Assembly: GCF_000384395.1 (NCBI RefSeq)
Contig: NZ_ARWE01000001.1
Coordinates: 3,384,501-3,448,500, forward strand
DNA from: Geopsychrobacter electrodiphilus DSM 16401
Lineage (GTDB): Bacteria; Desulfobacterota; Desulfuromonadia; Desulfuromonadales; Geopsychrobacteraceae
Direction of reading: 5' to 3'
DNA length: 64,000 bases
A program made the translations under genes and the position numbers. Positions 33,999-38,649 of the stretch are shown one piece after another. The first letter of the stretch is position 1; each line of letters opens with the position of its first letter. The notes under the pieces were generated by a model. It saw nothing but the letters and a program-made list of their open reading frames with translations, was not told where the DNA came from and made no database searches.

Positions 33999-34334
33999 AT
34001 GGCTGAAAAAATCTGCCCGACCTGCAAAGCAGAACTCAAGGGAAAATACTGGTGCGCCAAATGCAAAACGGTATTTAGATGCCCTCTACCTGGCTGTGAA
34101 ACCGAAATTACCAAACCAGGTACTGAGGACTGTCCGCGCTGCGGGCTCTTTTTTGAAGAGTATCTAAGTCAACGCAAAATGTATCGTCGTTGCCCCAAGT
34201 GCAAAAAAAAGCAGGGGCTCTCCGAACAGCAGTGTCGCGCCTGTCGGCACTGGTTCAACTGCCCGACCTGCGGAGAGAAGGTATCAACCAACACTATCCT
34301 GACCTGTCCACGCTGCGGCACAGGGTTGCGCTGA
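33999..34334 (+). CDS. Small multi-zinc-ribbon protein
   Basis: 111 aa containing eight cysteine pairs: CPTC, CAKC, CPLPGC, CPRC, CPKC, CRAC, CPTC and CPRC. This would make up to four zinc sites. Between them are Lys/Arg-rich segments. ATG 33999 has AGGGG 8 bp upstream. Proteins of this kind bind zinc and often nucleic acid or partner proteins, but I do not recognise a family of known function. It stands alone between two terminators. Confidence 0.75.
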   Translation: MAEKICPTCKAELKGKYWCAKCKTVFRCPLPGCETEITKPGTEDCPRCGLFFEEYLSQRKMYRRCPKCKKKQGLSEQQCRACRHWFNCPTCGEKVSTNTILTCPRCGTGLR

Positions 34335-34354
34335 GAGCATATAACTTTCTTAAA

Positions 34355-34390
34355 AAGAAGGGGCCGGTCATTGCTGACCGGCCCCTTCTT
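34355..34390. terminator. Strong bidirectional terminator
   Basis: The 16-bp perfect stem AAGAAGGGGCCGGTCA / TGACCGGCCCCTTCTT with loop TTGC has T-rich tails on both strands. It serves the zinc-ribbon gene on the plus strand and the small selenoprotein candidate on the minus strand, whose extended stop ends at 34392. Confidence 0.9.
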
Positions 34391-34391
34391 T

Positions 34392-34547
34392 TTATTTTAC
34401 AGTCTCATCGCTGTTCTGCTTTTCGGTCTCCCGCACGGGGAGACTGCAAGAAGCTGACATTCAGGTCTGAACCCCCATGCGCGGCAGAATCCAGCGATTT
34501 AATACGAACCAGACTGCGACTATCCCGAGTAACCAGAGTAAATCCAT
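34392..34547 (-). CDS. Candidate small membrane selenoprotein (UGA read as selenocysteine at codon 29)
   Basis: An ATG at 34547 with AGGAG 8 bp upstream opens MDLLWLLGIVAVWFVLNR, a single TM helix, then WILPRMGVQT and an in-frame TGA at 34463-34461. Reading through gives MSASCSLPVRETEKQNSDETVK and a TAA at 34394-34392, for 51 aa, with U and C spaced UxxxxC. A 7-bp hairpin with a GUG-containing loop starts 16 nt after the TGA, in the window expected of a bacterial SECIS. The frame ends 2 nt before a strong terminator. If the TGA is a stop, the product is a 28-aa membrane peptide. Sec-dependent Geobacter relatives are known to encode many selenoproteins. Function is unknown; a membrane-bound redox role is inference. 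Confidence 0.65.
34426..34444 (-). promoter_or_regulatory. Bacterial SECIS-like hairpin
   Basis: The minus-strand stem GTCTCCC / GGGAGAC (7 bp, perfect) has the apical loop CGTGC. The loop begins 23 nt after the UGA and has G at its second position, matching the general bacterial SECIS model of a loop 16-37 nt after the UGA with G in the first two loop positions. It lies inside the extended coding frame. Confidence 0.6.
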
Positions 34548-34568
34548 AAAGTGTTCTCCTTTAAGTCA

Positions 34569-34597
34569 AGCATAAGCGATCTGTGCCTGTCACGCAA
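34569..34597 (-). promoter_or_regulatory. Possible sigma-70 promoter of the selenoprotein candidate
   Basis: On the minus strand TTGCGT (34597-34592) and TATGCT (34574-34569) are 17 bp apart, ending 21 bp before the start codon. Together with the terminator at 34617-34643, it makes the small gene an independent unit. Confidence 0.45.
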
Positions 34598-34616
34598 TTA
34601 CCAGCTGCTCATCGCT

Positions 34617-34643
34617 AAAAAAAGGCCGGCCCGAAGGCCGGCC
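34617..34643 (-). terminator. Intrinsic terminator of the psr operon
   Basis: On the minus strand the 8-bp stem GGCCGGCC / GGCCGGCC with a stable TTCG tetraloop is followed by T7. It lies 60 bp past the PsrC stop. Confidence 0.92.
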
Positions 34644-34703
34644 AAGGAGGCAGGAATGATCAGGACGTCAATCTGCCCTGACCGGTTGTTCCTCTGGCGA
34701 TTA

Positions 34704-35852
34704 TCAGTGTTGTTCACTTTCAAGATCGAGGGAGACAAACCTTTCAATCAGGGTATAGGCGAACGCGCTGAAGGCGATACAACCGACGACAATCAGCACC
34801 TCAGCAATTGAAGGGGTGTAAGTGAATACACCACCGACAAGCCCTTTGGCGCCCTGACGCATCGGATAAATCTGGCCAGCGATGGTCATGTCATAGCGCA
34901 TGAAAAACATCCCGATTAACGCCATCAGGCTTGCCAGCATCGTGGTAAAGGGGGTTCTATTTTTTCGCAACAACAGCCCCAGGGGAATCAACAGACCGAC
35001 AAGCACTTCACCCAACCAGAAATTAGCTGATAAATCGCCGTTAACCAGGGCCATGACTGGTTCGTAGTGACCGGGTTGCTGACCGTAGAGGCCGACAATC
35101 ACATTCCAGAACACAGAGAAGATCAGAACAAAAATCATCAGGCGCAAAATGCGGCCGAGCAGCCTGATAACACGTTTATCGGTATCATCCATCAGCAGCC
35201 CACGCAGGGCGTGATGAAAGTACATTACCAGACAAATCAGCGCCGTTCCCGAGACCAATGCAGTAATCAGGATATAAACCGGTAGAAAAGCGCCATGCCA
35301 GAACGAGCGTGCCAGGGTTAAGCCGAAGACCGAGCCCAAGACCGAAGGTGCGGCGATGGCAAACAGAAAGCCGAGGGTACCCGTTACCATTGACAGCTTC
35401 TGGTTATCGGTCATGAGCGCATAAAACTCAACAATCAGCACGACCAGATATATGCCGTAAACCGTGCCCATCCACCAGATAGCGGAAGAAAAGTTCGGCG
35501 ACAGCAGGGTATAAATCATATTAAAAGGACGTTCCAGATCCATCCCGATGGCACCAAAAGCCCCCATCAGACAAACGATCGCCAGCAGGATCGCGCGACG
35601 ACAGATCAGGTTGAACTCGTGAAACCCGAACACATGCCCTAAACTGGAGATGAGGCAGAGCCCGGAGCAGGATATCGCCATGAAAACGTAGGTCGAAATC
35701 AAGATGCCCCATGGCACCCCGCGTGAAACGTTAAAGGCATGTTCATGGCCGACCATATAACTGTAGCCCGCGGCACCTACCGCGGCAATCAGACAGGCCC
35801 CGAGGAACGCAAACCACAGGATATAACCAGGTTTTTTAGCCAGGGTTGACAT
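34704..35852 (-). CDS. psrC: NrfD/PsrC-type membrane subunit of the molybdopterin oxidoreductase
   Basis: 382 aa with about ten TM helices of the NrfD/PsrC family. The N-terminal part (SYMVGHEHAFNVSRGVPWGILISTYVFMAISCSG) and MDLERPFNMIYTLLSPNFSSAIWWMG are typical. It should oxidise quinol and pass electrons to the iron-sulfur subunit. No haem-binding motif is seen. It is the last gene of the operon, 12 bp after PsrB and before a strong terminator. The assignment as polysulfide reductase rests on the family and gene order; thiosulfate, tetrathionate or other sulfur oxyanions are possible substrates. Confidence 0.9.
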   Translation of the reverse strand: MSTLAKKPGYILWFAFLGACLIAAVGAAGYSYMVGHEHAFNVSRGVPWGILISTYVFMAISCSGLCLISSLGHVFGFHEFNLICRRAILLAIVCLMGAFGAIGMDLERPFNMIYTLLSPNFSSAIWWMGTVYGIYLVVLIVEFYALMTDNQKLSMVTGTLGFLFAIAAPSVLGSVFGLTLARSFWHGAFLPVYILITALVSGTALICLVMYFHHALRGLLMDDTDKRVIRLLGRILRLMIFVLIFSVFWNVIVGLYGQQPGHYEPVMALVNGDLSANFWLGEVLVGLLIPLGLLLRKNRTPFTTMLASLMALIGMFFMRYDMTIAGQIYPMRQGAKGLVGGVFTYTPSIAEVLIVVGCIAFSAFAYTLIERFVSLDLESEQH

Positions 35853-35864
35853 AGTCGTCTTCTC

Positions 35865-36419
35865 CTAAATCAAATAGAACAGATACGGCTTAGTACCCAT
35901 TTCCGGTTTGAGAACGCGGTGCTTATTTTTAGCCAGCAGCATTGAAACCTCGGAACTGGGATCATTCAGATCTCCAAAGACCCGAACCTTGGTCGGGCAG
36001 GTTTCAACACAGGCCGGAATGCCCCCCACAACTATCCGCTGGATACAGAAGGTGCATTTGTCGATCACACCTGTCTCTTCGTTGTAATAACGTGCGTCAT
36101 AAGGACAGGCCAGCATGCAATATTTACAGCCGATGCATTTATCCGGGTTGACCGTCACGATGCCCCCGGCCGTGATCCCGGTAGCGCTGGTCGGGCAGAC
36201 GGAATTACATGGCGGGTTTTCGCACTGATTACACTGACTCGGCGCGAAACTCTGACCAAGATGGGGATAAGTCCCCCGCAAAGGATCTTCGGTGACCCAA
36301 TTGCGATAGGTCTCATTACCAATCGGAACATTATTTTCCGCCTTGCAGGCCACCGTACAGGCCTTGCAATCGATGCACCGTCTGGTGTCAAGGACGATGG
36401 CGTAGCGTTTTTCTTTCAT
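35865..36419 (-). CDS. psrB: PsrB-type four-cluster ferredoxin subunit
   Basis: 184 aa with four cysteine groups for 4Fe-4S clusters: CIDCKACTVAC, CNQCENPPCNSVCP, CIGCKYCMLACP and CTFC with CVETCP. This is the standard electron-transfer subunit between PsrA and PsrC. It has no signal peptide, so it would cross the membrane as a passenger with the Tat-exported PsrA. It sits 28 bp after psrA and 12 bp before psrC. Confidence 0.94.
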   Translation of the reverse strand: MKEKRYAIVLDTRRCIDCKACTVACKAENNVPIGNETYRNWVTEDPLRGTYPHLGQSFAPSQCNQCENPPCNSVCPTSATGITAGGIVTVNPDKCIGCKYCMLACPYDARYYNEETGVIDKCTFCIQRIVVGGIPACVETCPTKVRVFGDLNDPSSEVSMLLAKNKHRVLKPEMGTKPYLFYLI

Positions 36420-36447
36420 CTTTTCAACTCCTTAACTGCTGCCCCCT

Positions 36448-38649
36448 TCAAGCGGGGCTGACGTCGACAAAGGTCTGATGCATGGCGACATTGCCAGAAA
36501 TAGGCTCGAGTTTTTCCTCGATCAGGGCTGCATCACAGGCGCCAACGCCATAGATCAACGATTGGCCTTTGGAGATAACCCCGAACCCATGTGCCATATA
36601 GACACAATCAGGACGGATCTTGTCTGTTACCTCCAGTTTGAGCGTCCCCTCGCCGACATTGCTCTTGACCTTAACCATCTGCCCGTCGCGCAGGCCCATC
36701 TTTTTGGCAGACTGCGTATTCAGCCACAGTGCATTCTCCGGCATCAGATCATGCAGATAGGCATTATTTGCCGTGGTCCCGTGGGTGAAATAGGCGTTGC
36801 GTCCTACGATCAAACGAAATTTCCCGGTCGGAACCCCGGCATGCCGCTTGTAGACCGGCATGGGATCGAGCCCCTTCTTGACATAGTTTTCAGAATAAAT
36901 TTCAATTTTGCCTGTCTTGGTTCTCAGCCGTTTCCCTTTCGTCAAGCCGTAACTCGGCTCCACCTTCATGTAATGAACGCCCTTACTCTTAAGATCCTTA
37001 AGAATTTTGGGATTCTTTTCAACCTGATGATGGATGTAGTCATCCATCGTAAAATCAAAGGTATCGGCAATATCCGAGCTCAGCCGTTTCGCCAGATTCT
37101 GCATGATCCAGAGATTCGGTTTACTCTCAAACAACGGTTCAATGCAGGGCTGCCGAAAGGCCACAACCGGCAGGATTCCACCGATCGATTCAAGCGGATC
37201 CTGGCGTTCAAGGTAGGTTGCTTCGGGCAACACAACATCCGAATACCAGGCGGTATCGCTCATGGCGATATCGATGGTGCAGATAAAATCCATCTGATCC
37301 ATCATCTTCATGGTTTTGGCGCGATTAGGCACCGACATCAACACGTTCTGTTTATAAATCATCATCCCTTTGACCGGATAAGGCTTTTCCTCGAGAATCC
37401 GGTCACGCATCGCAGTCCAGGAGCCGTCTTTCTCAGACAGAAATGCGGCGCTGCCATTGTCGATACGAAGGGGCACACCATCATACCAGGGGGCCAGATA
37501 GTCATGGTTCTGTAATGGGATATGGCTGTTGGGCACCAGGCCACCCTCGGTATCCCAGTTGCCGACAACGGCATTGAGAATAGCCATTGCCCGGCGCAAC
37601 TGAACATCGTCATCAGCAAATGAAGAACGGCGTCCGGGATAGAACACCGCCTTGGGCGCGGCCTTGGCGAACTCCCGCGCAATGCGTTTGATATCCTCGG
37701 CCGGGATTTCACACTCCACGGCCGCCCATTCAGGAGTGTACTGCTTGACGTGCGGCACCAGCATATCGAAACCGACTGTCATCTTCTCGACAAAATCTTT
37801 GGCATACCGCCCTTCGCCAACAATGACGTTAATCATCGCCAGGACAAAGGCCATATCCGATCCCGGCTTGATCGGAAACCACTCATCGGCCTTGGCGGCG
37901 GTTTTGGTGAAGCGTGGATCAAGGTAAATCAGTTTGCGTCGACCGCCGTCACCCTTGAGCTGATCAATGGAATCCGGGGTGATCAGAGCTTCGCTGCGAT
38001 TGGCTCCCGCCATGATGATGTAATCCGCATTGAGAACGTCCGGCGTCGGGAATGTGCCGTAAGTGGCGCTGAACCCTTGAATGTTGGAAGACAAACATAG
38101 GCTCGGATGGCGTACCGTATTCGGCGAACCGAAGCATTCCGCCATTTGCAGGAAAAAGTGTTCCTGAAAGGTCCCCTCGGTCGAGGCGAACATCACCCCG
38201 GCCCGGGTATATTTTTCGGCGATCTCATTCATATTCTTCGCCACCAGGTCGAGAGCCTCGTCCCAGCTGGCACGCCGCCATTTTCCCTCACCCCGTTTGC
38301 CTGAGCGGATCAGTGGATATTTCAGGCGATCAGGATCATAAACCACCTTGACGCCGGCATTTCCACGGGCGCAAAGCATGCCGCGGCTCTTGATGTATTC
38401 GGGGTTCGGATCCAGCTTGTGGATTCGTCCATCGCGAACCCGTGCGATCACGCCACATTTGTTGACACACATGCCACAGGCGGTAAAGACATCCTTCGTC
38501 CCTCCCATCTTCGACGTTGTGACCTCGCCAGAATCGGCCAGCGCCTTGAGTACCGTCGTTTGTGCCCCGACTGTCGCGACAGCCAGCGCACATCCCGAAG
38601 TCCCCAGAAAACGCCGACGACTCAGTTTTTTATCGATCAGTCGTGCCAC
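36448..38649 (-). CDS. psrA: PsrA/PhsA-type molybdopterin oxidoreductase catalytic subunit
   Basis: 733 aa. The twin-arginine signal SRRRFLGTSG (residues 10-19) directs Tat export. A 4Fe-4S motif follows (CGMCVNKCG and GMLCARG), then the molybdopterin domains and the dinucleotide-binding C-terminal domain (LIVGRNAYFTHGTTANNAYL). The Mo ligand is most likely the Cys in HPSLCLSSNIQG, as in the polysulfide, thiosulfate, tetrathionate and arsenate reductase branch; it is Cys, not Sec. The start is GTG 38649 with AAGGAG 6 bp upstream. The periplasmic enzyme probably reduces polysulfide or a related sulfur compound, and the exact substrate is open. Confidence 0.91.
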   Translation of the reverse strand: MARLIDKKLSRRRFLGTSGCALAVATVGAQTTVLKALADSGEVTTSKMGGTKDVFTACGMCVNKCGVIARVRDGRIHKLDPNPEYIKSRGMLCARGNAGVKVVYDPDRLKYPLIRSGKRGEGKWRRASWDEALDLVAKNMNEIAEKYTRAGVMFASTEGTFQEHFFLQMAECFGSPNTVRHPSLCLSSNIQGFSATYGTFPTPDVLNADYIIMAGANRSEALITPDSIDQLKGDGGRRKLIYLDPRFTKTAAKADEWFPIKPGSDMAFVLAMINVIVGEGRYAKDFVEKMTVGFDMLVPHVKQYTPEWAAVECEIPAEDIKRIAREFAKAAPKAVFYPGRRSSFADDDVQLRRAMAILNAVVGNWDTEGGLVPNSHIPLQNHDYLAPWYDGVPLRIDNGSAAFLSEKDGSWTAMRDRILEEKPYPVKGMMIYKQNVLMSVPNRAKTMKMMDQMDFICTIDIAMSDTAWYSDVVLPEATYLERQDPLESIGGILPVVAFRQPCIEPLFESKPNLWIMQNLAKRLSSDIADTFDFTMDDYIHHQVEKNPKILKDLKSKGVHYMKVEPSYGLTKGKRLRTKTGKIEIYSENYVKKGLDPMPVYKRHAGVPTGKFRLIVGRNAYFTHGTTANNAYLHDLMPENALWLNTQSAKKMGLRDGQMVKVKSNVGEGTLKLEVTDKIRPDCVYMAHGFGVISKGQSLIYGVGACDAALIEEKLEPISGNVAMHQTFVDVSPA

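Follow-up and report, generated by a model that had tools for sequence, protein, structure and literature searches.

SELENOK and SELENOS are single-pass eukaryotic selenoproteins with a short membrane helix near the N-terminus and Sec in a cytosolic tail, close to the C-terminus. Bacterial sulfide detoxification operons contain a BigR-type regulator, a persulfide dioxygenase, a TauE exporter, and SQR. We know of no small Sec/Cys membrane component in the operons of this kind that have been described. Bacterial selenoproteins such as FdhA and SelD are decoded through a bSECIS hairpin, for which the rule is a G at loop position 1 or 2 and a distance of 16–37 nucleotides from the UGA (PMC13188914). 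Table 1 in the main text of that paper (2026) lists 119 prokaryotic selenoprotein families and subfamilies, and several of these (for example, mercuric transport, SaoP, and YeeE/YedE) sit in the membrane and carry Sec/Cys motifs.

The gene described here lies on the minus strand of a 64,000-nucleotide stretch of the Geopsychrobacter electrodiphilus DSM 16401 genome (the window). Like FdhA and SelD, it has an in-frame UGA and, 16–37 nucleotides downstream, a hairpin whose small loop has an early G; as with them, the genome encodes Sec machinery, and Cys takes the position of Sec where that machinery seems to have been lost. Unlike them, it is much smaller, no known domain was found in it, and its Cys homologues are rare (4 of 153 distinct proteins). 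With SELENOK and SELENOS, to which it is likened by description only, it shares the short N-terminal membrane helix and the Sec in a predicted cytosolic tail; it differs from them in that theirs is the Sec close to the C-terminus.

No entry with a Sec-x4-Cys pattern on a single helix is evident in Table 1 of the main text of PMC13188914. NCBIfam, whose model numbers many entries in that table carry, gave no meaningful match: the window protein had none, and 25 members together had one, to an unrelated model at E 0.042. In Pfam, the window protein had one match at 0.096, below cut-off, and five diverse members had none at E ≤ 0.001. Three earlier papers (PMC1914089, PMC1242214, and PMC1794560) name other Geobacter and Desulfuromonas candidates, among which the 51-residue family is not evident. 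The deep-Sep survey reports 13 known and 0 new selenoproteins for the 3,958,620-nucleotide genome of Desulfuromonas soudanensis WTL, and its main text states that selenoproteins lacking Cys homologues may be missed (PMC12013277). One locus in our collection, L017, is taken to be from this strain, and we infer that deep-Sep missed its family gene. The family was found in no library or catalogue searched, nor in the open-access PMC papers searched, and appears to have been overlooked. The mode of UGA insertion would be ordinary, and the predicted protein architecture is unlike that of the listed families.

The gene and its flanking signals

The frame reads MDLLWLLGIVAVWFVLNRWILPRMGVQT-(TGA)-MSASCSLPVRETEKQNSDETVK-TAA. 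Its codon layout is ATG, 28 codons ending in LNRWILPRMGVQT, TGA, 22 codons (MSASCSLPVRETEKQNSDETVK), and TAA. The sequence-only reading had described 28 codons, a TGA, and 22 more codons behind a good ribosome binding site, and both the frame and the site (AAAGGAG) were found at the locus. Relatives have comparable purine-rich sites upstream of the start. The features are collected in Table 1.

Table 1. Features at the selenoprotein locus and beside it, in window coordinates
Feature	Coordinates	Strand	Basis
Predicted small membrane selenoprotein gene, 51 residues, Sec at 29, ATG to TAA	34392..34547	minus	Comparison
UGA codon read as Sec29	34461..34463	minus	TGA inside 36 strong matches; replaced by Cys in four distinct genes from Planctomycetota, in genomes with no convincing tRNA-Sec
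Codon of conserved partner Cys34 (Sec-x4-Cys)	34446..34448	minus	4-residue spacing in 137 of 149 distinct Sec proteins
SECIS hairpin GTCTCCC-CGTGC-GGGAGAC, within coding sequence	34426..34444	minus	Folding; rules of PMC13188914, section 5; covariation
Single predicted membrane helix, residues 2–23, then conserved stretch preceding Sec	34479..34544	minus	AlphaFold2; charge pattern
Ribosome binding site AAAGGAG, 8 nt before ATG	34556..34562	minus	Read from sequence
GC-rich inverted repeat and T run after stop codon, terminator-like	34352..34391	minus	Sequence reading
Terminator-like hairpin ending upstream operon, preceding selenoprotein gene	34624..34643	minus	Scan
Small multi-zinc-ribbon protein, convergent with selenoprotein gene	34008..34334	plus	
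Mo/FeS/NrfD operon	34704..38649	minus	Models all below cut-off

The signals around the frame are less uniform. A strong terminator had been claimed after the stop codon; a GC-rich inverted repeat with a T run does stand directly past the TAA, but it is absent from the output of a scan for terminator-like hairpins. The claimed promoter was not recovered, with 0 sigma-70-type sites in the 461 bases scanned at the gene. An Rfam scan of 34300–34760 gave 12 matches, all below gathering scores, and those near 34620–34720 overlap a terminator.

Translation table 11 gives a frame of 28 codons, with a hairpin and a terminator-like repeat downstream. The locus could on these grounds be read as a gene for a 28-residue membrane peptide that ends at the UGA, with the conserved 3’ stretch being a regulatory RNA or a terminator region. 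The comparison with relatives bears on this directly.

Conservation and the residue coded by the UGA

Machinery for Sec insertion, which the sequence-only reading had presupposed, is present in the genome. The genes selA, selB, and selD are adjacent at 1185320–1189634 (543.5, 359.3, and 343.7 bits, respectively, all above cut-offs), and selD has an inner TGA of its own. A tRNA-Sec gene (selC) was found at 2640671 with 66.4 bits, also above cut-off. Across the phylum, tRNA-Sec is above cut-off in 355 of 395 genomes and therefore cannot explain which members have the selenoprotein gene.

Conservation on both sides of the TGA, predicted by the same reading, was seen in a six-frame search of 40 relatives and the genome itself. 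The protein was found in 36 of the 41 genomes at E < 1e-11, with the TGA inside each match; three of the remaining five had no match and two had weak matches. A profile built from 25 of 30 loci was then searched across the phylum and found the family in 167 of 395 genomes (142 of 328 of good quality), and every one of the matches listed has at least one TGA inside. All 17 sampled genomes of the window’s own class are positive. One genome (G192) has two family matches, C1:513614 and C25:95481, the second being weaker (E 1.5e-7).

A scan of a species-level genome collection gave 149 relatives. The best 80 of the 149 are, by title, mostly from Desulfuromonadia, and include Desulfacinum, Desulfomonile, Syntrophobacteraceae, Planctomycetota, and a contig titled Kuenenia; 79 of these 80 have TGA and one (L110) has a Cys codon. 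In Planctomycetota, the protein was found in 24 of 294 genomes, and the loci as read comprise 20 Sec and 4 Cys forms. Five of the Planctomycetota matches listed have no stop; one of the five (G610) ends ahead of the Sec column, and its gene (L144) has the TGA.

One record titled Chloroflexi (L106, JADFVC010000239.1) encodes a protein one residue different from that of a Desulfuromonadaceae contig (L095). The record is probably mislabelled, because of this single difference and because the phylum search from its genome returns places of the window’s phylum. That search gave 121 of 297 genomes at places repeating those of the window’s phylum and hence is no independent sample of Chloroflexota; five of the matches listed have no stop and end ahead of the Sec column. 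A tblastn search of plasmids with the window protein was negative, as was a search of viral contigs with one peptide pattern; neither collection thus shows a sign of mobile spread.

The protein pattern is well kept on both sides of the UGA. Among 149 distinct Sec proteins, with L184 counted as a Sec member, Pro at −7 and Gly at −4 relative to Sec never vary, 147 proteins have Trp at −16, and 145 have Thr at −1. A Cys follows Sec after four residues in 137 proteins, after five in nine, and after eight in one. The two without a Cys within 11 residues (L144 and L146) suggest that some lineages can do with Sec alone. Median length in the family is 52; some start codons were set too far downstream when loci were read (e.g., L050 and L084), with the Sec region unaffected. 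Constraint right after the TGA equals that before: across 61 sequences, the codons preceding it have a pN/pS of 0.36 and the five that follow have 0.35.

Distinct proteins number 153, of which 149 have Sec and four have Cys at the UGA position. The tRNA-Sec was sought in 22 genomes, 18 with the Sec form and four with the Cys form, at a cut-off of 47 bits. It scores at least 69 bits in 14 of the 18 Sec-form genomes and in 0 of the 4 Cys-form genomes. Best scores in the other four Sec-form genomes are 52.7, 49.0, and 34.5 bits, with none listed for the fourth; these are perhaps draft gaps. Among the Cys-form genomes, G434 has a best score of 46.0 bits, below the cut-off, and G622 and G679 have no match at E ≤ 3e-8, a limit that could hide a match of 47–48 bits. 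G608 has two matches of 49–50 bits, slightly above the cut-off, which are read as probably other tRNAs. The presence of Cys at exactly the UGA codon, in genomes seemingly without Sec, is the strongest argument that the UGA stands for selenocysteine.

Four observations count against a frame that ends at the UGA. A TGA lies inside all 36 strong matches, four genes replace it by a Cys codon with the frame continuing, pN/pS after it is as low as before, and the Cys five residues on is kept in 137 of 149 proteins. A 28-residue peptide followed by a regulatory RNA or terminator region is accordingly given next to no credence. Decoding of the UGA as selenocysteine, judged from this comparison of sequences, is strongly supported and close to certain. 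The claim of a tiny selenoprotein missed by annotation is likewise supported at the level of the family, where many genomes agree with it.

The protein is predicted to cross the membrane once. AlphaFold2, run with 41 sequences, gave a helix at residues 2–23 and an unstructured tail (mean pLDDT 68.8, moderate confidence). The charge pattern fits this model. Over 155 rows, some of them repeated, the mean Lys/Arg count is 0.25 in the N-terminal segment versus 1.86 in the 12 residues before Sec, while the mean Asp/Glu count is 0.79 versus 0.10. By the positive-inside rule, this suggests an N-out, C-in orientation. The membrane protein of the sequence-only reading is in keeping with this predicted topology. 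A thioredoxin-like fold was not seen in the model, which has one helix and a disordered tail, and a PDB profile search gave two matches at E 1.2 that are not meaningful. The one-helix topology is considered likely, and the selenoprotein and its one-helix architecture taken together are held with great confidence.

The hairpin downstream of the UGA

The sequence-only reading had pointed to a 7-base-pair hairpin beginning 16 nucleotides past the TGA with G second in its loop, and this hairpin is present as described. The loop, CGTGC, has G second and T third. Under the bSECIS rule, the hairpin is accepted with a spacing of 23, a CGUGC loop, and −11.1 kcal/mol. As a lone sequence it folds modestly better than its shuffles (z −1.85, with 9 of 200 folding at least as well), so the case for the hairpin rests on comparison.

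A strict rule demanding an unbroken stem is passed by 73 of 146 non-redundant Sec members, versus 3.4% of shuffles (30 per member). The other 73 members fail it, including L040, L041, L043, and L044 of the window’s own genus; in L041 and L043 the stem is interrupted by one mismatch.

Covariation was measured in two ungapped groups of 20 and 38 sequences, chosen by protein pattern after the hairpins had been seen; a third group of 24 sequences was left out. The group C..[EG][DS][RQ] (n = 20) has 88.6% of cells paired, and 6 of 7 pairs show double changes; the cells with such changes number 33, compared with 11.7 ± 3.0 in shuffles. The group C.[LP]P[VG][RG] (n = 38), which includes the window, has 82.0% of cells paired, and 3 of 7 pairs show double changes; here the cells number 25, compared with 8.5 ± 3.6 in shuffles. 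The paired share, the number of double-change cells, and the score were each reached by 0 of 500 shuffles in both groups. The other two of the five measures were often matched: 25 and 31 of 500 shuffles reached the number of double-change pairs, and 158 and 402 reached that of pair types. In the window’s group, 48 of 266 cells are unpaired, of which 42 fall in the two outer pairs, and the outermost pair is unpaired in 31 of 38 sequences.

The stem covaries. Retention of the hairpin in relatives, which the sequence-only reading also implied, is borne out by the compensatory changes, but not throughout, given the unpaired cells and the four relatives of the same genus that fail the strict rule.

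The hairpin also seems to dictate part of the protein, namely the LPVR or LPRDG that follows the Cys. In this stretch, pN/pS is 0.74 across the 61 sequences, compared with 0.35 in the five codons past Sec and 0.36 upstream of it.

The Cys form L110 has its gene at positions 1436–1639, in a genome without tRNA-Sec above cut-off. This gene keeps the hairpin GTGCGGT-GTC-ACCGCAC of its Sec relatives L099 and L105, which is likely a fossil of recent Sec loss. The other three Cys forms (L191–L193) have no hairpin passing the bSECIS rule.

Gene neighbourhoods and possible functions

Eight marker proteins were searched by tblastn within 6 kb of 141 loci, 19 from Planctomycetota and 122 from other groups. 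In Planctomycetota, MBL-rhodanese was found at 7 of 19 loci, an SQR-like protein at 7, TauE at 6, DsrE at 3, and any of the four at 11, where the queries came from L191, L105, L117, and L110, which are themselves counted, and where some of the 19 loci are close relatives, so not all independent, and some are short. The nearest match is always on the same strand as the selenoprotein gene. The remaining 8 loci show none of the four. These markers were found at 0 of the 122 loci outside Planctomycetota.

Two Planctomycetota loci (L191 and L192) have the order TauE, MBL-rhodanese, selenoprotein-family gene, and SQR-like gene. The gap to the MBL-rhodanese gene is 10 nucleotides in L191. In L192, the two genes overlap by 4 nucleotides. 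Pfam identifies Lactamase_B with Rhodanese, and Pyr_redox_2, in L191 proteins, and TauE in an L117 protein; the SQR-like protein scores 259.2 against NF049943, whose cut-off is 525. MBL-rhodanese occurs in 7 of 9 genomes, with one to three copies in each genome having any. Six of these seven have a copy no more than about 2.5 kb from the family gene, and in four of the six it is the sole copy; in G432 it is located elsewhere in the genome. Compact sulfur clusters with TauE, MBL-rhodanese, DsrE, or SQR-like genes are present at L099, L109, L110, L117, L191, and L192. An ArsR-type match on the opposite strand lies about 0.27 kb away at L099 and L110. Two further loci (L097 and L206) had been placed in the MBL-rhodanese neighbour cluster and were rejected; their ORFs are probably antisense artefacts, and tblastn found no MBL-rhodanese there. 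In Planctomycetota, the family gene can thus lie near genes of the kinds seen in sulfide detoxification operons, of which it may be a component; at the 122 other loci there is no such link.

Neighbours outside Planctomycetota are mostly a matter of positional synteny, or are FmdB-type or CcdA genes. A downstream block common by position in Desulfuromonadia consists of a zinc-ribbon protein, uvrA, and pdxA, the latter two recognised from sequence. At 25 of 81 loci the zinc-ribbon cluster follows the selenoprotein gene on the opposite strand, and a convergent gene for a small multi-zinc-ribbon protein is likewise present in the window. An FmdB-type zinc-ribbon gene is directly beside the selenoprotein gene, and on its strand, in several families (e.g., L160, L162, L166, L201, and L205).

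The operon upstream of the gene in the window encodes a molybdopterin protein (PhsA-like, 554.9 bits, cut-off 694), an iron-sulfur protein (TtrB/DsrO-like, 192.0 and 191.3 bits, cut-offs 416 and 200), and an NrfD protein (DsrP-like, 52.4 bits, cut-off 350). It is read as a probable thiosulfate/polysulfide-reductase-like enzyme of unsettled substrate. The operon ends 156 nucleotides upstream on the same strand, 15 of 81 loci have the Mo-protein cluster about 2 kb upstream, and NrfD-type genes are near 5 of 81, all of which would fit an accessory subunit of this complex. A terminator-like hairpin lies between the two in the window, most of the loci compared do not show the operon, and another gene intervenes in L164, L169, and L172. 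The operon was set aside as a partner on account of the hairpin and because most of these loci do not show it, and a subunit role is thought very improbable.

As a single-pass inner-membrane protein, the product would have its N-terminus outside and Sec in a short cytoplasmic tail beside the membrane. Sec could pair in a selenenylsulfide with the Cys five residues on. With its selenol at the inner membrane face, the protein would suit a selenenylsulfide cycle or the carriage of sulfane sulfur. Because the Planctomycetota clusters contain sulfide and persulfide genes, a membrane-tethered selenol/persulfide relay is favoured, which would take or pass sulfane sulfur or disulfide equivalents beside enzymes that oxidise sulfide or use persulfide. 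The gene is nearly universal among the sampled anaerobic Desulfuromonadia, and there the same relay could work with sulfide or polysulfide. This sulfur-relay function, drawn from the Planctomycetota neighbourhoods only, is put forward tentatively. It is somewhat more doubtful that the protein is a membrane-bound sulfur carrier of an unknown type, whose selenol would take sulfane sulfur from quinone-linked sulfide chemistry and hand it to rhodanese or persulfide-using enzymes.

A role in general membrane thiol-disulfide redox, with a CcdA/TlpA-like, peroxiredoxin, or quinone-linked reductase partner in place of sulfane-sulfur transfer, would account for other neighbours. CcdA-like matches lie within 6 kb at 6 of the 122 non-Planctomycetota loci, genes that look TlpA-like, peroxiredoxin-like, or rubrerythrin-like are near several loci, and presence in 17 of 17 genomes of the window’s class suggests a housekeeping role. 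The CcdA gene, however, is convergent on the other strand in four of the six, all four in the window’s class, and the clusters in Planctomycetota suggest sulfide and persulfide instead. We consider this role possible, though on the unlikely side.

Sec and Cys might instead bind a soft metal or metalloid at the membrane face, perhaps with an FmdB-type zinc ribbon or an ArsR-type regulator. An FmdB-like match on the same strand lies within 0.43 kb at 15 of 122 loci (L101 and L156 are probably the same place), and an ArsR-type regulator lies within 6 kb at 9 of the 122 and at 4 of the 19 Planctomycetota loci. One neighbour at L117 appears P-type-ATPase-like, and several membrane selenoproteins in the main text of PMC13188914 are tied to metals. 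The neighbour lists contain no consistent metal transporter, however, and the single ArsR protein scanned scores above cut-off for the general ArsR/SmtB model and below cut-off for the specific ones, including the sulfur sensor BigR. A metal ligand is judged improbable, and the selenol/persulfide relay is retained as the favoured reading.

The family is present in about 40% of the sampled genomes of its phylum, yet is seemingly absent from the libraries searched and from Table 1 of the main text of PMC13188914. It was likely overlooked because it resembles an open frame of 28 codons and because discovery methods rely on Cys homologues, which are rare here. This suggests that selenoproteomes are still undercounted, and the sequence and hairpin pattern could be used by annotation pipelines. 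The family also connects selenium with membrane sulfide chemistry in a way that can be tested.
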